This document shows positions 189 to 9,695 of a DNA stretch of 9,695 nt, piece after piece; the stretch's first letter is position 1; every line of letters begins with the position of its first letter. Origin of the DNA: Elusimicrobia bacterium HGW-Elusimicrobia-2 (GTDB lineage Bacteria > CG03); contig PHAM01000064.1 of NCBI GenBank assembly GCA_002841685.1, forward strand, positions 1 to 9,695, read 5' to 3'. The notes beneath the pieces were generated by a model. It saw only the letters and a list, made by a program, of their open reading frames with translations. It searched no databases and was not told the DNA's origin. The translations under genes were made by a program, and so were the position numbers.

Positions 189-1034
189 TCAGAATTTGAT
201 GCCGACGCTCGTTATGTACGCGTAGCCCAGAGCCCCGTGCGGGAGAAAAGCGAAATCCGCGAAATAGCCCCCGTCCTGCCAGCCCAGACCGAAACTGAGG
301 TTCAGGTCATCCTGATAAGACGAACCTATTCTCAGCGTGAGATTTTTCTGCCGCTTGAATTCAATGCCGAGAAGATACTGTATCTTCTCATATCCGGTGA
401 GTTTCACTTCGCTGACAAGATATAACCGGCCCATTTTCTGAAGGGCGCCGATCTGCAAAGACCGGGGAAGTTCCTCTTTTTCATTTATTATTTTTTTCTT
501 TCCTCCGAAGTTCTCAACCACCGCGCCGAAAGCTGTCGTGCGGGAGGGCTGCGTCAAAAATCCTATATCCCACGCGTGATGATTGTAATCATTACCGTAA
601 ATTTTCTGGCTGAGCTGTTTATATGTCACGCCCGTGACGGTGTAACGCTTCAGCCGGAGGCCGTATGACATGCTGAGAACACCGTATCTGTCCGTGAAAT
701 CACCGAGCTTTTCACCTGCGGCATCCCGCGCCGTATCCTCAAAACTGTAATTCTGCCAGCTCAAACCGAAATGCCCGGCGTTGACGGCGGCGGCATTCTG
801 CTTTGTTGACATATACCACGCGTTCTGGGAAAAAGACGCCGCTCTTTCCTGCTTGAAAGCCAGCATCGCGGGATTGATCCGCCAGCAATCCCGGCCCTCC
901 CACAGCGCGGAGGCCCCGTTCATCGCCGCCAGCCGCGCCGACGCGGGTATCTTAAGAAAAGCGAAGCTCCTTGTGCCGGGGTCTTCCGCGAAAACGGAAA
1001 CCGCGCAAATCAAAAGCAATATTATTTTTTTCAT
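189..1034 (-). CDS. PorV/PorQ family outer-membrane barrel protein
   Basis: A short signal peptide (MKKIILLLICAVSVFA) leads to EDPGTRSFAFLKIPASARLAAMNGA, which is typical of PorV/PorQ proteins, and then RINPAML at the usual NPA position. About 280 residues of alternating strands end GYAYITSVGIKF, a C-terminal Phe suited to BAM insertion. Length fits the PorV/PorQ family (roughly 300). PorV binds the C-terminal domains of type IX cargo and passes them to the PorU sortase; PorQ also works in that complex. The gene directly follows one encoding a sorting-domain protein and overlaps its stop by 4 nt (ATGA), so it may be a dedicated partner, by inference. The only binding site is weak, so translation probably depends on coupling. 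No clear terminator follows the stop. Confidence 0.78.
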   Translation of the reverse strand: MKKIILLLICAVSVFAEDPGTRSFAFLKIPASARLAAMNGASALWEGRDCWRINPAMLAFKQERAASFSQNAWYMSTKQNAAAVNAGHFGLSWQNYSFEDTARDAAGEKLGDFTDRYGVLSMSYGLRLKRYTVTGVTYKQLSQKIYGNDYNHHAWDIGFLTQPSRTTAFGAVVENFGGKKKIINEKEELPRSLQIGALQKMGRLYLVSEVKLTGYEKIQYLLGIEFKRQKNLTLRIGSSYQDDLNLSFGLGWQDGGYFADFAFLPHGALGYAYITSVGIKF

Positions 1035-1888
1035 CTTATTATCGTCATCTTTCCTTTTGCTTTTCCCTTCAATGCCTTATAAACGATAAAATAATTTCCC
1101 GTGGCGACAATGCCGCCGTGCCTGTTCCTGCCGTCCCATTCGTTGGTGCCGGTCAAGCTGACCACGAGCATCCCGCTCACATCATATATCTCCACGCTCG
1201 CGTTGAGCGAGCCCTTATCGGCCGGCGAGATGATCGTGCAGCTGTTTGAACCCGTTGGCCTGAAAGGATTGGGCGCCGAGTAGCAGACGCTCTCCTCCCT
1301 GAAACTTCCGTATTGAGAGGATTTAGGCGTGGGGAAGGAATTCACATAGAAATCAGCGGCGTTATTATCGCTGTCGGCTCCGGCTGGATCTCTTGTGAGG
1401 GATCCCCCCCCTCCCGCCACGGGAGCGCTTGCCCCGCCCTCGCCGTCAACATCTTGTATTGGCACATCATCGTAAGCCACCCTGTCCATTTCCACATCCG
1501 CGGAATTCACCAGCCGTATTCCCTGCCGAGAGCTGTTGCTCATCTGCAGTTCATTGGAATATACGAAATCCGGATAATCCGCGCCCCAGTCGTACCGTGT
1601 GTGCACCTGCGACTGCGTCATAAGAAAAAAAGATTTGGCGCCTATGACAAAACTCTTTGTCGGCGAAGAGATCGTTATAAAATCCTCAAAGCCGTCGACA
1701 CTGTCCGACTTCTGTATCTTCCAGTTCGTTACGGTGATATCGGCGGATGTGTTGTTGTAAAGCTCGATCCACTCATAGCCCTCATCGGCGCCGTCGGGGT
1801 CATAGACAAATTCGTTTATCACGACGCTGCCGGCGAACAATCTGCCGCATGCGGCAATGACCATGAATAGAAATAAAGCCCGCCTCAT
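1031..1888 (-). CDS. Lamin-tail-domain surface protein with type IX-like C-terminal domain
   Basis: The export signal (MRRALFLFMVIAAC) may be cut after LFA at residue 19, or processed as a lipoprotein at C14, since IAAC fits a lipobox. Residues about 21-190 carry the lamin tail domain signature: VVINEFVYDPDG, DEGYEWIELYN, WKI, FLMTQSQ, IRLVNSADVEMDRVAYDD. A Gly/Ala-rich linker with GGGGS follows. Residues about 201-285 are a FlgD-Ig/type IX-like sorting domain: APNPFRP, SVEIYDVSGMLVVSL, NEWDGRN, ATGNYFIVYKA and a final KMTIIR. In bacteria, lamin tail domains often accompany secreted nucleases and other surface proteins; here no catalytic domain is attached, so a binding or adhesion role is inferred. 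Start ATG 1888 overlaps the upstream stop (ATGA), with GGAG close in front. Its own stop overlaps the next start. Confidence 0.85.
   Translation of the reverse strand: MRRALFLFMVIAACGRLFAGSVVINEFVYDPDGADEGYEWIELYNNTSADITVTNWKIQKSDSVDGFEDFITISSPTKSFVIGAKSFFLMTQSQVHTRYDWGADYPDFVYSNELQMSNSSRQGIRLVNSADVEMDRVAYDDVPIQDVDGEGGASAPVAGGGGSLTRDPAGADSDNNAADFYVNSFPTPKSSQYGSFREESVCYSAPNPFRPTGSNSCTIISPADKGSLNASVEIYDVSGMLVVSLTGTNEWDGRNRHGGIVATGNYFIVYKALKGKAKGKMTIIR
1404..1411 (-). repeat. G8 homopolymer tract in a surface-protein gene
   Basis: The coding strand reads a run of eight G in the linker (GGGGS) between the lamin tail domain and the C-terminal sorting-type domain. Runs of this length are prone to slippage. 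A one-base change would remove the C-terminal domain and could also break coupling to the downstream PorV/PorQ-like gene. Phase variation is a possibility, not shown. Confidence 0.6.
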
Positions 1889-3120
1889 AATCTCCAGTCC
1901 AGCGACACATTGAACATGTGCATGGACTCCTGAATTCTCGCGTCATAAGAAGTGCTGAACCTCTGCCAGCTCTCCAGATAATTACGCCTGCCGTAAGCGT
2001 AGCCCAGATCCATGTACATGTTGGATGAGATGTAATATCCGAATCCGGCCGTGAGATATGCCCTCTCGACGGAAGTTCTCTCGTAAGAGGGAATGAAAGC
2101 CATTCCGTAACGGATCTGCAGGGTGCTGCTCAGATCATTCTCTATTCCGAGGTGATAAGACACACTGTCTTTGTAATTGTGTTTTACAAGCGTCACGGGA
2201 TCGATAAAACTCATGTCCGACCAGAAGGTCTTCACAATGTCAAAATAAATAGAGGCCGAAACGGCGCCGGCCCAGATGTGGTTCAGCCCGAAGACGAGCT
2301 TGCGCGGAAGATCCAGCGCACCTTTCTCTTTCCGGCTATCGGTGCCGCTTGTGTATTTGACATCATAGTCGAGCCCCGCCGGAGCGGTGTACGCCAAACC
2401 GTAATTCCAAAGCCCCCTGTCCCGGTAAAGAGACAAATTCGTGCGGCTTCCCGAAAAATCATATTCCCTTTTTTCCCGCTTCGTGGAGGCTTCGCTTGTG
2501 CCGATTATGCTCGTCTCAATTGAAGGATTGCCGCTTATTATCTCATGAGTCATGCCCCATGACCAGCCTCCTGAAAATTTTAAGGCCGCGGCAATATCAA
2601 AACTCCTTATATTTCCGGAACCCTTGTAATCAAATTTACCGATATAGCTCCCTCCGGAATAAGCTTCTGCCTCGTGTTTATAGGAAAAATTCATCAGTTG
2701 TATCATGCCCATACCCAGTCTCACCCTGTCGCTGAAAGCGTAAACGAAAGCCGTCTCCGGAATTTCAAAATAGGAATTGGCATTATAATACGCCCCGCCT
2801 CCATCGGCCGACCAGTTGTTGTCGGGAATCACTCTTTCCGAGACAGTAACAAGAGGAAGAGAAAAATAAAACCTGCTCCCGTCAAAAGCCGACATGGACG
2901 CGGCATTGCTGAAAAGACAGGTAGCGTTCTTCGCGGATGAGACTGACGTTAAACCCAGAGCGAGGGATTTCGCGCCGCCGGAATACACGGGGTCGCCCAG
3001 ATCAAGCATCCCCAAATTGGTAAAAGCCGGCGACGGAATTGTCAGAGCAGCCAGAAGCGCCGGAATTAAAATTTTTATCGTTTTTTTTCCGCCACAGGCG
3101 GATTTCACTCCTTTCAACAT
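1885..3120 (-). CDS. Outer-membrane barrel protein, OmpP1/FadL/PorV-like
   Basis: A signal peptide with a basic n-region (KKTIK) and hydrophobic core ends near PSPA (residue 32). The mature protein begins FTNLGMLDLGDP, then GGAKSLALGLTSV and FSNAASMSAFDGSRF. This is the position and style of the NPA-G-L segment found near the N-terminus of FadL/OmpP1/TodX and PorV-type barrels, with the usual Pro replaced. The rest is alternating beta strands with many Tyr, Ser and Gly (for example AYGRRNYLESW near the C-terminus), fitting a barrel of about 14 strands, though I cannot count strands reliably. In the wider family FadL carries hydrophobic compounds and PorV escorts type IX cargo; I cannot decide between them. 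ATG 3120 is set by a consensus AGGAGG. The stop overlaps the next start by 4 nt (ATGA). Confidence 0.68.
   Translation of the reverse strand: MLKGVKSACGGKKTIKILIPALLAALTIPSPAFTNLGMLDLGDPVYSGGAKSLALGLTSVSSAKNATCLFSNAASMSAFDGSRFYFSLPLVTVSERVIPDNNWSADGGGAYYNANSYFEIPETAFVYAFSDRVRLGMGMIQLMNFSYKHEAEAYSGGSYIGKFDYKGSGNIRSFDIAAALKFSGGWSWGMTHEIISGNPSIETSIIGTSEASTKREKREYDFSGSRTNLSLYRDRGLWNYGLAYTAPAGLDYDVKYTSGTDSRKEKGALDLPRKLVFGLNHIWAGAVSASIYFDIVKTFWSDMSFIDPVTLVKHNYKDSVSYHLGIENDLSSTLQIRYGMAFIPSYERTSVERAYLTAGFGYYISSNMYMDLGYAYGRRNYLESWQRFSTSYDARIQESMHMFNVSLDWRL
3088..3102. repeat. Perfect 6-bp inverted repeat with 3-nt loop at a gene start
   Basis: TCCGCC-TGT-GGCGGA on the minus strand, flanked by a run of A8. 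It lies 19-33 nt into the OmpP1/FadL-like gene and encodes part of the signal-peptide n-region. It is a stable GC hairpin close behind a consensus Shine-Dalgarno site. It could tune translation, or be an interspersed palindrome of the kind seen in many copies in some genomes. A single copy is seen here. Confidence 0.5.
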
Positions 3121-3133: not shown

Positions 3134-5236
3134 TCAAAATTTAAAAATATATTTCATCTCAAATGTCTCAGCGACATCGTTCATCACATCTTCTCCGCTA
3201 TATTCGTAAGTACCGTCGGTATAGTCGTATGTGCCGTATTCAGGCATATAGAATTCCGGCGGATAATGATACATCTTTCTTGTGTATTTCATCGACACGC
3301 TCGCATTCTTTGAGAACTTCATGCTCGGGCTTATTGATATCATGGTGTACTTCTTCTTTCCGTCGCCGGGATCTTTGGAATAGCTGACCTTGGAAAGCAG
3401 CTGAAAGCTCTTGGTGAATCTGTATTTGAGCTCCGCGGAAGAGGCGCTGTCGACCCAGAGCCATTGATTATCCTGTATGAGTTGTCTTCTGTCATACTGC
3501 CACTTTATTCTCGCGTCCGCCGACGGGCTCCAGGTCATCTGCAGGCGGAACTGATTTATTTCCTGAGGTATTTGATAATAATCGCTGGTGTCATACATCT
3601 TCATCTTATCATCCTCATTCTGTATCGTATAACGGCACATCATCTTAAGTTTCTTCGTCACCGGATACTGGCCCTGGAGATAGGTCTTGTAAAAAGTTTT
3701 GAGCGTTATTGCTTTAAGAGGATTGAGCTCTCTCCATATCTCGCCCGCCCATTTTATGTTCAGTTTTTTAGTTTTCGTCGTCATCTCGGAAAACATCTTC
3801 TCATAGGGGTTATCGCCGGAAATACGGTAATTGTAGTAATCGGAATCAAAACGGTGCAGGCCCAGAAGGAGTGTCGTGTAGGAAAAACTGTAAACGCTGG
3901 CGAACTGGAAGGCCTTGCCCAATTCCCTTTTCTTTGTTCTGTCTATATTGCTCTCATAGGCATCATGTACTGAAAGAGCATAATCCAGAAAAAATTTTCC
4001 GTTGCCCTGCGAGGTCTTAACGCCGGCGGAAAAAATATCGTTTCGGCCTCCGGAGAACTTGTAGCGTATGTATTTTATATCCGTCTCGCCCCATGCGGTA
4101 ATATCCTCTTCTTCCATCCAGTCGTCAGCTCTTTCCACCGGCATGACTTCCGGGGAGAAGATTTCGTGATAACTGAGGAAATGCACCTCATAATTAGGGA
4201 GAGGCACAGACACATAAAAACCGCAGGCCCTGTCTTCCATATTGTTGACGAGATTGAATTTGTCCTGATTGTTGTAGGCGAAACTCACGCTGGATGGCAC
4301 GGACTTCGCGGTGCCGTCGGGATTGAGTTTGGCCGTGAGAAATTTGTCCGAATAGAACGCCGCCCATGTCATGTAAGGCATGGTCTTCTGAACGGCTATT
4401 CCGTAAAAACCGGCGTTTTTATTAGACGACCTGTAGGGCTCAACGCCTTTTTTTTCGCGGCTGACGGCGGATATCGTCTTTGAAACCGAGCCGAGCCCGA
4501 GCCCGCGCTCAAATGTGAGCTTGAACGCGCCGAGCACAAAAGTGTCAAATCCCAGATAATCTTTCGCGTAAAGATAATTGCTCACGAGATAATATCTGCG
4601 CAGATTCTCCCATGTCATCCCCTGCCCCCACGCGTCCCTTTTCACCGCGAAAGAAAGCTCCATGTTGGTGCCGTAAAAATACCTCAGCCGGGCGAGCTGG
4701 GATTCGGGATTGTGAAAATTCGAGGGAGCCTCCGCCTGTTTGTCGGAAAAAGGCATCGTCAGTTTCTGCGTGATCCTGAGATCGCCTTTAAGCAATTCTT
4801 TCTCCTCTTCCACATAGACGGTCAAAAAAGGCCTTATCATCCTGTATATCTCATCCGTCATACCTGCCACATCTTTGAGTTCTTCCACGTCCCTGAATCC
4901 GCCGCGGCGCACGCGGTGCCGTATTATCTCAACCACCAGGCCCGGCGGGAGCATCGGGAGTTTCATAAGATCCGGGCGGTTTACGGTGTTGAGGTCAAGA
5001 GGGTTGGCCCTGAAATCTTCAAGTTCCTTGGTGTCTATATCGTCAAAGCCTATTTTTTCGTCTTCAACATCCTCCACGATCTCGTCGTATATGTTCTCGA
5101 GCTCATTTTCCGGGATGTCCGCGAAACAGGGCGCGGCAAAAGAAAGAATAACAAAAACGGATAGATATTTGAAAAACTGATTCAGCCCGGCGGCTGCCAT
5201 CCTCTCATACCGCATCTTGTCTCTTGCATACAGCAT
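3134..5236 (-). CDS. Large outer-membrane beta-barrel protein with N-terminal ComEA-like HhH domain
   Basis: A signal peptide ends at about PCFA (residue 39). It is followed by a strongly acidic stretch (41-75) and then a ComEA-like HhH domain at 79-140: LDLNTVNRPDLMKLP, IIRHRVRRGGF, VEELKDVAGM, IRPFLTV. From about 152 to 700 the sequence is alternating aromatic and polar strands ending MKYIFKF, a C-terminal Phe of the kind read by the BAM machinery. This suggests a large barrel with a periplasmic HhH plug or tether. Similar-sized HhH-plus-barrel proteins occur in Bacteroidota and Chlorobi genomes, without known function as far as I know. The first hairpin is PMLPPG and the second AGMTDE, so the canonical GIG loops are degraded. 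The ATG at 5236 lacks a good binding site; ATG 5215 and 5200 also precede the signal peptide. It follows the barrel-HhH-TPR gene by 6 nt. Confidence 0.75.
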   Translation of the reverse strand: MLYARDKMRYERMAAAGLNQFFKYLSVFVILSFAAPCFADIPENELENIYDEIVEDVEDEKIGFDDIDTKELEDFRANPLDLNTVNRPDLMKLPMLPPGLVVEIIRHRVRRGGFRDVEELKDVAGMTDEIYRMIRPFLTVYVEEEKELLKGDLRITQKLTMPFSDKQAEAPSNFHNPESQLARLRYFYGTNMELSFAVKRDAWGQGMTWENLRRYYLVSNYLYAKDYLGFDTFVLGAFKLTFERGLGLGSVSKTISAVSREKKGVEPYRSSNKNAGFYGIAVQKTMPYMTWAAFYSDKFLTAKLNPDGTAKSVPSSVSFAYNNQDKFNLVNNMEDRACGFYVSVPLPNYEVHFLSYHEIFSPEVMPVERADDWMEEEDITAWGETDIKYIRYKFSGGRNDIFSAGVKTSQGNGKFFLDYALSVHDAYESNIDRTKKRELGKAFQFASVYSFSYTTLLLGLHRFDSDYYNYRISGDNPYEKMFSEMTTKTKKLNIKWAGEIWRELNPLKAITLKTFYKTYLQGQYPVTKKLKMMCRYTIQNEDDKMKMYDTSDYYQIPQEINQFRLQMTWSPSADARIKWQYDRRQLIQDNQWLWVDSASSAELKYRFTKSFQLLSKVSYSKDPGDGKKKYTMISISPSMKFSKNASVSMKYTRKMYHYPPEFYMPEYGTYDYTDGTYEYSGEDVMNDVAETFEMKYIFKF

Positions 5237-5242
5237 TTTGCG

Positions 5243-6667
5243 TCATTGTCCAATTTCCTGTTTGCATTTTTCAATAATACGCAGCGACTGGGGATGAGAA
5301 GGATCTATTTCAAGTATTTTTTCAAATTCTGTTATAGCCTGCGAATATTTTTTGGCCTGATACAGCTTCAGCCCCCGGAAATACAGCTGTTTCTTCAGTT
5401 TCTCGGCTTCTTCCGGCGTTAATTTTTTCTCCGCTTCCTCTGGTTTTTCTTCCCTCACCGGCGGAGCGTATTCCAGCCCCTCCGGTTTCCCCGACGGCGC
5501 GGTGAGAGTTATATAATCCTTTATCTTATCAAACTGCTTCTTAGTAAAACGCGGCACCTTCAGCAGATCCTCTTTGGCCGTAAACGGCCTGCTGTTATTC
5601 CTGTAATCCACAATCCTGACCGCCGTCACCTTTCCTATGCCCGGCAGCGCGTCAAAATCGGCGACTTCCGCCTTGTTGATATCGATAAGCTCAGCGGGCT
5701 TCTCTCCCGGCGCGACCTGCACGACCGTGCGCGGCTGTTTCTTTTCCTTTTTATAATATTCCGTCGGGGCCGCCGTCTCCCTTTTCTCTCCCCATCTTAA
5801 AGACGCCGAAAAAACATGCTGATTGTTGAGCACTTCATGGGTCTGGAAAGCGTAGTCAAAATCTATCCGGTTGAGCATTATGCCGAAACCGAAAGAAGCC
5901 CTCTGCTGTTCCGGCTGAACGCCGAATCTCACGCAGAAGGACGGCACCACATTTATCTCGGCGCCGATCTTGAGAATATCCTCTTCCCTGTCGGCGGGCA
6001 TATTCCAGTCAATGACAGTTATCAAACCCCTGAAAGGACGATAGCACAGGCTGCCGGTCAGATCCCTGTAGAGGGTTTCCGAAGCTATCTGGGGCCGGTT
6101 GAGTCCTCTTGAGAAAACGCCTATGGAAAGTTGTGTGGATATCACACCCAGCGCCCCCGCGTCAAAAGACAGCGCCGAAGCACTGCCGCCGCCTTCTATT
6201 TGAAGGCCGAGATTCCTGATGTTATAACCGAAATAAGCGCCCGGAACGAGCATGAAACTGTGCGTAAAAATCAGTTCGCTTTCCTTATAGTATGACGCGC
6301 CGAAGGAAACATAATTGAAAGCGAAGGAGCCTGCCGTCTTTGTGGGGAGCATAAAACCCGCGCCGCTGTGTTTCATATCGGCTTCGCCGTAAAGAGAGGT
6401 CTGCGAAAATGACAGCGCCGAGGCGCTCAGAAGATTAAGTCCGGCGGGATTGAAAAAAGGAGCGCTGTAATCATTGGCAAGCGAAGTGTATGCTCCGCCC
6501 ATGGCCGCGGGGCGCGCGTAAAGAGGCTTGTCCTCAAAAGCGGCGTAACCACAAGTAACCAAAAGAAAAAGAAAAAGGAAAAGGGGACGGTGGAAAGTGA
6601 TTTTCTGAGAAAACCAATAATTCCTAAAAAATATTAAGGACGTCCCAATATTCACAATATTCATCAT
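5243..6667 (-). CDS. PorV-like barrel fused to ComEA-type HhH domain and TPR
   Basis: Four parts in order. A long N-terminal extension leads into a hydrophobic export signal (residues about 28-43, ending CGYAA). Residues about 44-293 look like a PorV/PorQ/UPF0164-type outer-membrane barrel: ARPAAMGGAYTSLANDYSAP then FFNPAGL, followed by alternating strands. Residues 328-388 are a ComEA-like HhH domain (IDINKAEVADFDALPGIGK, YRNNSRPF, DLLKVPRF, IKDYITL). After a Glu/Lys-rich linker, residues about 427-470 form a TPR-like unit (YFRGLKLYQAKKYSQAI, EFEKILEIDPSHPQSL). The HhH and TPR would sit in the periplasm. The first hairpin keeps PGIG; the second (PRFTKK) has lost it. In known systems ComEA HhH binds incoming DNA; whether this one does is open. 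Start ATG 6667 has AGGA 8 nt upstream, or the adjacent ATG 6664. The roughly 27-residue region before the hydrophobic core is unusually long. Confidence 0.78.
   Translation of the reverse strand: MMNIVNIGTSLIFFRNYWFSQKITFHRPLFLFLFLLVTCGYAAFEDKPLYARPAAMGGAYTSLANDYSAPFFNPAGLNLLSASALSFSQTSLYGEADMKHSGAGFMLPTKTAGSFAFNYVSFGASYYKESELIFTHSFMLVPGAYFGYNIRNLGLQIEGGGSASALSFDAGALGVISTQLSIGVFSRGLNRPQIASETLYRDLTGSLCYRPFRGLITVIDWNMPADREEDILKIGAEINVVPSFCVRFGVQPEQQRASFGFGIMLNRIDFDYAFQTHEVLNNQHVFSASLRWGEKRETAAPTEYYKKEKKQPRTVVQVAPGEKPAELIDINKAEVADFDALPGIGKVTAVRIVDYRNNSRPFTAKEDLLKVPRFTKKQFDKIKDYITLTAPSGKPEGLEYAPPVREEKPEEAEKKLTPEEAEKLKKQLYFRGLKLYQAKKYSQAITEFEKILEIDPSHPQSLRIIEKCKQEIGQ
6626..6652 (-). terminator. 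Terminator-like hairpin with T6 tract inside a coding start
   Basis: On the minus strand AATATTGGG pairs with CCTTAATATT (allowing G-U pairs) around a short ACGT loop, followed directly by a run of six T. It lies within the first 14 codons of the barrel-HhH-TPR gene. The stem is AT-rich, so it would be a weak terminator or an attenuator. It may simply be chance in an AT-rich segment. Confidence 0.2.
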
Positions 6668-7632
6668 AGTTTCCGTCCTATCGCCACAACCGTCTGCTCT
6701 TTTACCACACCGCCGGTGTCCTGGTCGGCGAGCTCCACCGAAATTATGTACATACCGCAGGGAAGAAACTGCTGATTGACGTCCCTGCCATCCCAGATGT
6801 AATCGTAATGCTGGGCCAAAAATTCCTCAGCCTTGACGATTGCCCTCACAAGGCGGCCCTTCACGTCGTAGACGAGCACATTGACCCTCTGCTCCGTAAC
6901 CGGAGCGCTCGGCAGATTGAAGACTATCCTGCATGATGAAGGTTTCCCCGCCGGAGTGGAATAGGGGAAAAACACTTTTAAAACATCGCCGGAATCGGGG
7001 GCAAAGGTTTTAAGGCCTATGGTTTTCAGATAAGCAGGCAGCGGCTCGTATGAAAACCTGACTGTGTCCACATAAACATCATTGTTGTTGTTCACTGTTT
7101 CCTTGACGGCTATGTATATCTTAGCTTTGACGGCAGTGGCAGGGGCCGCCATTCCCGGCGATGAGACAGAATGCCAACCGTCAAAAGCGCTGAGATTCGT
7201 TCCCGGTATCAGCCCTGTGTCTTTTCCCAGATCAAGGCCGTCAGCGTCATACCATTTGACATAAAGCTGTATATCCGTGTGCTCTATTTCGCCGGCGGCG
7301 GCCTCGTTGGCGACATAAAAATAAGCTCTGAGCGAAAAAGCGTAATCGTCTGCGGGTGATGAACTCCCCGTGGCCGTGAGGTCTATGCTATTGCTGTTGA
7401 GCGTCCGGCCGCTGAAAGCCGTTGTCGGGTCCTTGAATTTGCAGGAATAACCGCCTTCACAGCTTTCGTCGTTTGAGGCGGTGATGCTGGTTGAATTCGC
7501 GCTCCATCCTGTCAGCGTGCCGTCATTAAAATACTGATTGGTAAAATGAATGTAGTCCAGCGCCCACGCCAATGACGCAAACAGCGCAAACGCCGCGCCC
7601 GCGACAACAAATTTTAATTTTTTATTTCCCAT
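6664..7632 (-). CDS. Secreted protein with jelly-roll-like region and FlgD-Ig/type IX-like C-terminal domain
   Basis: A clear signal peptide (MGNKKLKF, hydrophobic core, predicted cut after AWA at residue 24) directs export. Residues about 25-195 are beta-rich, with aromatic and Asn/Asp-rich segments and a C58/C64 pair. The order of elements (FNDGTLTGWS, later DVYVDTVRF) resembles carbohydrate-binding or galactose-binding-like jelly rolls; that is inference. Residues about 216-320 match the FlgD Ig-like / type IX sorting-domain style: VNVLVYDVKGRLVRAI, then YIWDGRD, PCGMYIISVEL and a final basic GRKL. These domains commonly end surface-exported proteins in lineages with type IX-like secretion. 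Start ATG 7632 follows GAGGAG by 2 nt. The stop overlaps the next start by 4 nt (ATGA), pointing to translational coupling with the barrel-HhH-TPR gene. Ligand unknown. Confidence 0.7.
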   Translation of the reverse strand: MGNKKLKFVVAGAAFALFASLAWALDYIHFTNQYFNDGTLTGWSANSTSITASNDESCEGGYSCKFKDPTTAFSGRTLNSNSIDLTATGSSSPADDYAFSLRAYFYVANEAAAGEIEHTDIQLYVKWYDADGLDLGKDTGLIPGTNLSAFDGWHSVSSPGMAAPATAVKAKIYIAVKETVNNNNDVYVDTVRFSYEPLPAYLKTIGLKTFAPDSGDVLKVFFPYSTPAGKPSSCRIVFNLPSAPVTEQRVNVLVYDVKGRLVRAIVKAEEFLAQHYDYIWDGRDVNQQFLPCGMYIISVELADQDTGGVVKEQTVVAIGRKL

Positions 7633-7699: not shown

Positions 7700-8023
7700 T
7701 CATAGAATCGTTACAGCTTCCTTCATAATATCCGGTTTCAAAAACTCTGGAACGCTGCCTTCGGTGACAATTTCCACTTTCATCCCGAATAACTTTTCAA
7801 GTTTAAGCTCCAGAGAAAGCAGTTCCAGCAGGCCTTTTGTCTTTTTAAATTTGACAAGAAGGTCAATATCGCTGCCGCGCTTATGGTCCCCGCGGGCGCA
7901 GGAACCAAAAACAGAAATCTTTCCTATATCATTTTCGCGGCAAATTTCCCTCATTATTATCGCCTTATCCGCGCTTAGTTTTAACCCCGCGGCAGAGCGT
8001 TTGTTTTTCAATTTAATCCCCAC
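7700..8023 (-). CDS. MNT-type minimal nucleotidyltransferase domain protein
   Basis: This 107-residue protein has the DNA polymerase beta-like nucleotidyltransferase signature: FGS at 39-41, ARG, then GSDIDLLV with acidic residues D52 and D54. A third acidic position is probably E84 in KVEIVT, where many relatives have Asp. Family members transfer nucleotides to proteins or small molecules; MntA antitoxins AMPylate a HEPN toxin. No HEPN protein is adjacent on either side here, so a toxin-antitoxin role is not supported. The GTG start at 8023 directly follows the TAG of the membrane-protein gene, with GAGG 6 nt upstream inside that gene. A TTG at 8011 behind GGTGGGG is an alternative start. 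The first 20 or so residues are basic and lie outside the core domain. Cytoplasmic by inference. Confidence 0.85.
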   Translation of the reverse strand: MGIKLKNKRSAAGLKLSADKAIIMREICRENDIGKISVFGSCARGDHKRGSDIDLLVKFKKTKGLLELLSLELKLEKLFGMKVEIVTEGSVPEFLKPDIMKEAVTIL

Positions 8024-8830: not shown

Positions 8831-9695
8831 TCAATACTCATCATCCGAACCGCCGCCGCCCGATCCCGATTCCGATTCGTATTTGTCCGTGAGACTCTTC
8901 TCAACAACGCTTTTGAGCTTTTTGTCTTTGAGCTCCACCTGGTTTATCCATGTGCCGCCGCCCTCGGGCGCGCGGGCCGGCCAGGAAACCCAGCCACCCC
9001 ATTTCCCTTCCATTATCTTGCATTCGATCTCTATCTTGTTGTTGAAAGTCATGGCGCAGAAAACCTTGAGCTTGCTGCCGCCGCGGGTGAAAGGAGAGTA
9101 TTTTGACACCTTATACGAGATCTGGCTTGAAGGTTTTGACGACGGCTCTTTTCTGACAATGGCGTCTGTCACCTCTTTTTCAAAAGCCGGGTCAAGTATC
9201 TTTATCTGCGGATAAACCTTGCCCCGTTTATTGACATAGGCGGGGAAATCGAGCTTGGTGCGGCCGGCGATATCCTTCACCTTTATTTCCGATATCTTTA
9301 TGGCGTTGTTGAGCACGACCGACGCTATGGCTTTCGTAGTGCCGGCGCCGCTGACAGGCGTCACCTCAACCTCTGTCACCGTCAGCGGAAGGGATTTTCC
9401 GCCCGGGATTATTTCCGCCTCATAGGATGTTTCTTTCTCGTATTTTTCAATAACGCTTTTCTCTATCTTTTTCTTTATTTCGGGCTTGATGAGGTCAACC
9501 TGTTTGACCCATTTGCTCCCGGATTTAGTGGAGGGCCAGGAAACCCACGGGCCCTTGGTCCCTGTCATGACCTTGCACTCCACCTCCACCTCGTTATTGA
9601 ATGTCACCGCGGAAAAGGCCTTCATGGACGATCTCTGTCCCTTGGGGTCATAGAGCGACATCTTTGACACCTTGTAGGAAAGCTTGCTGGATACG
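8831..9695 (-). CDS. Multi-domain SpoVG-like repeat protein, 5' end beyond the window
   Basis: The reading frame is open to the right edge, so the N-terminus is missing. A GTG at 9670 could be taken as the start, but the eight codons before it (VSSKLSYK) match the sequence before the same point in the last repeat (SSQISYKVSK), so that GTG is internal. Counting from it, three SpoVG-like units are visible: A1 to residue 80, B at about 96-175, and A2 at about 182-266. The A units share FNN-(E/K)-(V/I)-E-(V/I)-EC and WVSWP. The B unit has the family pattern KAIASVVLNN with a later PAYV in place of the usual MPS. SpoVG is normally a single domain of roughly 90-100 residues that binds nucleic acid and acts as a regulator. 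Three or more copies in one chain is unusual. The tail is Gly-rich and ends SDDEY. There is no signal peptide in the visible part; a cytoplasmic role is inferred. Family call fairly sure, function unknown. Confidence 0.8.
   Translation of the reverse strand, partial: VSSKLSYKVSKMSLYDPKGQRSSMKAFSAVTFNNEVEVECKVMTGTKGPWVSWPSTKSGSKWVKQVDLIKPEIKKKIEKSVIEKYEKETSYEAEIIPGGKSLPLTVTEVEVTPVSGAGTTKAIASVVLNNAIKISEIKVKDIAGRTKLDFPAYVNKRGKVYPQIKILDPAFEKEVTDAIVRKEPSSKPSSQISYKVSKYSPFTRGGSKLKVFCAMTFNNKIEIECKIMEGKWGGWVSWPARAPEGGGTWINQVELKDKKLKSVVEKSLTDKYESESGSGGGGSDDEY
8873..9127 (-). repeat. SpoVG-like repeat unit A2
   Basis: Second A-type copy: SSQISYKVSK, MTFNNKIEIECKIM, GGWVSWP and a C-terminal helix ending DKYESE, matching A1 in order and spacing. 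The differently styled unit B (about 9146-9385) sits between them, so the array alternates A-B-A. Confidence 0.75.
9431..9694 (-). repeat. SpoVG-like repeat unit A1
   Basis: First visible copy of the A-type domain in the SpoVG-repeat gene. It aligns with unit A2 over its whole length: SSKLSYKVSK, then VTFNNEVEVECKVM, GPWVSWP, and a C-terminal helix ending EKYEKE. Divergence is at amino-acid level; only short blocks such as ccaggaaaccca remain identical in DNA, so the duplication is old. Confidence 0.75.

Follow-up and report, generated by a model that had tools for sequence, protein, structure and literature searches.

What might two adjacent genes for outer-membrane barrels do when each product carries a ComEA-type helix-hairpin-helix (HhH) domain? 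Such a pair lies between positions 3,134 and 6,667 of the 9,695-nucleotide contig PHAM01000064.1 of Elusimicrobia bacterium HGW-Elusimicrobia-2. We call this whole stretch the window; it makes up contig C14 in an assembly of 1.78 Mb and 96% completeness. An earlier note on this DNA suggested that the pair could form an outer-membrane device for the capture or uptake of nucleic acids, or else a paired scaffold. The conservation of the pair and its linkage to comEC are solid computed results, and the function is what we infer. We see roughly even chances that the two proteins form the outer-membrane portion of a module for nucleic-acid (DNA) uptake.

The gene pair and its two HhH domains

The two open reading frames (ORFs) lie on the minus strand, 6 bases apart in the ORF listing of the window, and encode the following features:

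3134..5236, minus strand: 700-residue HhH-barrel protein (ORF, Pfam, model)
4820..5005, minus strand: HHH_3 domain of the 700-residue protein, residues 78-139, GhG hairpin lost (LPMLPPGLV) (Pfam)
3137..4789, minus strand: large beta-barrel region of the 700-residue protein, about residues 150-700 (low-confidence model)
5243..6667, minus strand: 474-residue protein with a PorV-like outer-membrane barrel, a ComEA-type HhH and C-terminal TPR-like helices (ORF, profiles, model)
5789..6538, minus strand: predicted PorV/FadL-like 14-strand barrel of the 474-residue protein, about residues 44-293 (model, PorV_fam, Foldseek)
5507..5695, minus strand: HHH_3 domain of the 474-residue protein, residues 325-387, hairpin LPGIGKVTA with GhG kept (Pfam)
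5249..5416, minus strand: TPR-like C-terminal helices of the 474-residue protein, residues 418-473 (TPR_2, model)

Both proteins match the Pfam domain HHH_3 (PF12836) far over its cut-off of 27 bits. In the smaller one the match covers residues 325-387 (E 3.4e-17, 62.7 bits), in the larger one residues 78-139 (E 3.9e-12, 46.5 bits). The profile search that the earlier note had proposed for the two proteins therefore gives scores over threshold for both and confirms its account of adjacent barrel genes with one ComEA-type HhH each. The HhH positions it had read by eye, 5504-5686 and 4817-5002, agree closely with the Pfam boundaries (about 5507-5695 and 4820-5005). Its domain orders, barrel-HhH-TPR for the 474-residue protein and HhH-barrel for the 700-residue protein, agree with our profiles and models, although the TPR_2 match is weak (5.7e-5, under cut-off) and covers a stretch that is predicted to be helical (predicted local distance difference test, pLDDT, 83-91).

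The barrel of the 474-residue protein resembles PorV/PorQ, a shuttle of the type IX secretion system (T9SS). Its match to the NCBIfam PorV/PorQ family (NF033709) reaches 9.4e-16 and 58.3 bits, under the curated cut-off of 90, and its relatives score 41-78 bits against the same profile. The model of this protein has 14 strands, and its Foldseek matches include FadL and the PorV subunit (6h3i_F) from the T9SS translocon, at a mean pLDDT of only 59.5. Differences from PorV/PorQ are the added HhH and TPR parts, the HhH-barrel companion and, in the order of genome G077 (below), the adjoining comEC gene. The model of the 700-residue protein shows some 22-24 strands beyond residue 150 and has large barrels as its top structure matches, at a mean pLDDT of 54.9; we dropped the attempt to name this barrel from structure because the models are too weak for family assignment. 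Profiles from Pfam and NCBIfam give the 700-residue protein no named family apart from HhH, and the module as a whole no name beyond its HhH and PorV-like parts.

The second hairpins of both HhH domains had been described as degraded. This holds for the 474-residue protein, in which LPGIGKVTA is the first hairpin and VPRFTKKQF the second, whereas in the 700-residue protein it is the first hairpin, LPMLPPGLV, that lacks its glycines. Among relatives, a strict GhG is found in 14 of 21 PorV-fused HhH domains (mean net charge +2.6) but in only 1 of 89 domains of barrel proteins (mean net charge -1.2), with 8 of 21 in small ComEA-like proteins; since each class holds many related sequences, p values for these comparisons overstate independence. 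The proposal that both HhH domains bind DNA finds no support in these counts, and we rejected DNA binding by the HhH of the barrel protein. The hairpin sequences suggest that the PorV-fused HhH is a candidate DNA-binding domain and that the barrel's own HhH is not; because the latter has lost the DNA-binding hairpin, it is more likely a docking domain for a partner.

Both domains belong to the same family as ComEA (HHH_3; TIGR01259, TIGR00426), with solved ComEA structures among their best sequence matches and GhG kept in the PorV-fused copy. Unlike ComEA, which is soluble or anchored in the inner membrane, the HhH domains of the pair are attached to outer-membrane barrels. The two proteins score 39.5 and 22.5 bits against TIGR01259 comE, far under its cut-off of 152.35, the K62/K63 positions are changed, and the barrel-linked HhH is without GhG.

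Conservation of the pair and linkage to comEC

The pair is not local to this genome; when its conservation was checked, as the earlier note had advised, it recurred in the window's phylum, in other lineages and in Bacteroidota-like genomes. An alignment-based search with the HhH-barrel found six loci in named records. The nearest of the named relatives sit in records labelled Elusimicrobia bacterium (e.g. PEUP01000082, 85% identity) and a class-level relative in a record labelled Caldiserica bacterium, and the viral contigs searched contained no relative. Of the 16 genomes in the window's phylum, 14 have a relative of the HhH-barrel; among the 148 Bacteroidota-like genomes sampled, 114 carry it, almost always in single copy. 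"Bacteroidota-like" is the name we infer for the phylum of genome G077, on the basis of a 567-bit SprA_N match in its member G218.

Neighbouring genes were read with profiles built from the window family. A PorV-like gene stands directly upstream of the HhH-barrel gene in 14 of 14 loci of the window's phylum, in 17 of 35 loci of other lineages, in 17 of 30 loci of G077's order and in 23 of 26 other Bacteroidota-like loci, and the two genes mostly overlap or are separated by at most 40 bases. As a control, we looked at 325 further genes from these stretches in the other lineages; a PorV-like gene precedes 5 of them (Fisher p ~1e-15). HhH copy number varies, with two domains in the HhH-barrel proteins of several lineages, two in the PorV-like protein at four loci of the window's phylum and none in the PorV-like partner at loci L015 and L016. 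Fusions of a PorV-like barrel to a ComEA-type HhH also occur outside this phylum, at L073 (G151) and L178 (G108). The presence of a ComEA-type HhH on both proteins, these wider fusions and the GhG kept in most PorV-fused domains all argue for a role in DNA uptake. Locus L178 is itself a one-strand cluster of HhH genes, in which the PorV-HhH fusion is accompanied by a five-HhH protein, a single-HhH protein and a 631-residue HhH protein.

The gene that follows the HhH-barrel gene in G077's order is comEC, in 30 of 30 loci; a scripted count gives 28, and the other two, L089 and L096, are explained by a split reading frame and by the choice of start codon. Genome G223 has the order lamin-tail domain (LTD), PorV, HhH-barrel, FadL, one gene, comEC. 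Two genomes of the window's phylum, G014 and G009, encode a second ComEC (~985 residues, DUF4131 + Competence) that shares the strand of the module and lies ~6.5 kb downstream of it. We found no secretin in four of the five genomes of G077's order that were searched, which implies that these have no PilQ-type pore. All of these observations favour DNA uptake, and so does the gene content of the window's genome, which includes ComEC and DprA, secretins and a ComEA-like protein anchored in the membrane. Compared with uptake by the type IV pilus with PilQ, ComEA and ComEC, the pair would share the inner-membrane ComEC and would differ, in those four genomes, by the missing secretin.

Neighbouring genes and rival functions

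The pair is flanked in the window by these genes:

189..1034, minus strand: 281-residue second PorV/PorQ-like barrel (PorV_fam 1.5e-22, 80.6 of 90 bits)
1031..1888, minus strand: secreted LTD protein whose C-terminal tail is T9SS-like (LTD 4e-16)
1885..3120, minus strand: 411-residue FadL-type barrel, the next gene downstream (Toluene_X 1.3e-10; BamG 7.1e-16, under cut-off)
6664..7632, minus strand: 322-residue secreted protein, CBM_4_9-like, with a FlgD_ig/T9SS-like tail, the next gene upstream (profiles)
7700-8023, minus strand: small nucleotidyltransferase (PF01909), which separates the SpoVG/membrane genes from the secreted-protein cluster (profile)
8831-9694, minus strand: triple-SpoVG protein (PF04026) (profile)

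With its LTD (1031-1888) and FadL-like (1885-3120) genes, the window repeats a neighbour set of other lineages. Secreted neighbours of the module carry LTD, OB-fold or DUF5689 domains and T9SS-like tails at 12 loci across lineages (some of the OB-fold matches are under cut-off), often with a FadL-like barrel there too. DUF5689 proteins adjoin the module at L079, L185 and L189. Loss of RA0C_RS04920, a DUF5689 protein, abolishes transformation in Riemerella (PMC8459023), and the secreted neighbours therefore speak for DNA uptake: this essential protein has domain counterparts beside the module. ComEC and an HhH protein are likewise essential for transformation in Riemerella and Porphyromonas (PMC8459023, PMC11532111). 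At the outer membrane, however, the product of the candidate gene in Riemerella is of the carboxypeptidase-regulatory/TonB type, and the transformation genes named for the two include no PorV/HhH-barrel pair. A 315-residue protein with three HhH domains in G218 (L172:6802-7746) has a layout that recalls the HhH protein needed for Riemerella transformation.

A FadL-like barrel follows the HhH-barrel gene at 12 of 14 loci in the window's phylum and at 11 of 35 in other lineages. The FadL/BamG-like character of the 411-residue neighbour, together with the structural role of PsbU relatives of the HhH domain, would fit a general scaffold or assembly role in the outer membrane, akin to BamG, the FadL-type subunit of the Bacteroidota beta-barrel assembly machinery (BAM) complex. 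We consider such a role very unlikely. The BamG match (NF053685) reaches 58.3 bits against a cut-off of 250, and 34 of the 148 Bacteroidota-like genomes have no HhH-barrel. The HhH-barrel as a BAM subunit was rejected, as two papers on the structure of the Bacteroidota complex name no HhH protein (PMC12611786, PMC12578637).

Captured DNA could also serve nutrition instead of transformation, if it were caught at the surface, cut and then imported as nucleotides or fragments. Genes for 5'-nucleotidases near the module at L077 and L079, a PLD-like protein at L086 and the combination of LTD and OB-fold in the extracellular nuclease ExeM (PMC6085458) all point this way. So do the RecB-like PD-(D/E)XK nuclease genes found near both ComEC paralogs of the window's phylum (G000:C80, which is L164, and L162). 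However, the module has no constant nuclease, and ComEC in known systems imports single strands for transformation, which makes nutrition improbable in our judgement.

The main rival to DNA uptake is T9SS-like export and surface anchoring, because the HhH-barrel also tracks the translocon SprA. Here the PorV-like barrel would shuttle neighbours bearing C-terminal domains (LTD-FlgD, CBM-FlgD), the HhH-barrel would be its partner or anchor, and the HhH would bind protein and no DNA. Kinship to PorV/PorQ, PorV among the fold matches, the T9SS-like tails of the neighbours and the lost GhG of the barrel HhH are all in its favour, as is the position of the PorP/SprF shuttle genes of F. johnsoniae beside cargo genes (PMC12618676). 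SprA_N is found in 73 of 290 genomes. Outside the window's phylum, SprA is present in 37 of 44 HhH-barrel genomes (odds ratio 31.6), a tally made by hand and uncorrected for phylogeny, in which some long ORFs were assigned from partial matches. Within this phylum a divergent SprA occurs in 15 of 16 genomes; the SprA-like translocon at G000:C93:5104-7839, in a 1716-residue frame, scores under the TIGR04189 cut-off and belongs to a lineage outside Bacteroidota. We nevertheless think this explanation rather unlikely, since it leaves the comEC linkage and the PorV-ComEA-type fusions unexplained and the SprA enrichment is confounded by phylogeny. Genome G077 has an HhH-barrel beside comEC yet no SprA, and G010 and G012 have SprA without an HhH-barrel.

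A possible route for DNA across the outer membrane

If the pair serves DNA uptake, secreted LTD or OB-fold surface proteins would catch DNA, and the PorV-like barrel would hold them at the surface, by analogy with T9SS, in which shuttles of the PorV type retain the cargo. The large HhH-barrel could be the pore or gate that passes the DNA strand, with its own HhH docking a partner. A GhG-bearing ComEA-type HhH, fused to the PorV-like barrel here and probably supplied elsewhere by a separate ComEA, would grip the strand as it enters the periplasm and ratchet it toward ComEC. The original suggestion of nucleic-acid capture or uptake thus gains from the genome context (comEC linkage and LTD, OB-fold or DUF5689 neighbours), while giving up one of its two proposed DNA-binding domains. 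The alternative in the earlier note, a paired scaffold, keeps some probability.

More specifically, and only tentatively, the HhH-barrel and its PorV-like partner may constitute a secretin-independent outer-membrane DNA translocon, a missing step of transformation that is kept across Bacteroidota-like genomes and several other lineages. Porphyromonas and Riemerella are naturally transformable, and to our knowledge the route of DNA over their outer membrane has not been established; the pair would be a specific candidate for DNA passage through the outer membrane of bacteria without a pilus pore. The pair is also a case of a ComEA-type domain relocated onto an outer-membrane protein, and it connects T9SS-type surface proteins with possible nucleic-acid handling.

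Several observations weigh against DNA uptake. In the window's own genome comEC is not adjacent to the pair, and the other sampled Bacteroidota-like genomes show no direct adjacency either; its confinement to G077's order may reflect one ancestral event, and we rejected it as a general rule. Secretins occur in the window's phylum, this genome included, so both uptake routes could exist there. ComEC and DprA are near-universal in the genomes sampled and hence non-discriminating, which is why we rejected the presence of either as evidence of competence. The barrel HhH is without GhG even where comEC adjoins, SprA is enriched among HhH-barrel genomes, and the transformation screen in Riemerella turned up other genes. 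Finally, ComEA of V. cholerae requires its GIG hairpin and K63 (PMC3879209); the PorV-fused HhH of the window has the GIG, followed by V347/T348 in place of K62/K63.

In the literature searched for HhH barrels, T9SS and transformation, and Bacteroidota competence, from which most subscription journals and preprints are absent, the pair is not described. The Caldiserica-labelled record has, close to the module, a gene for a metallo-beta-lactamase protein that is secreted and bears a T9SS sorting tail (L037:7930-10263). A triple-SpoVG protein like that of the window is also encoded upstream of the module in G014 (L086:148-1290), and it may therefore be a conserved neighbour.

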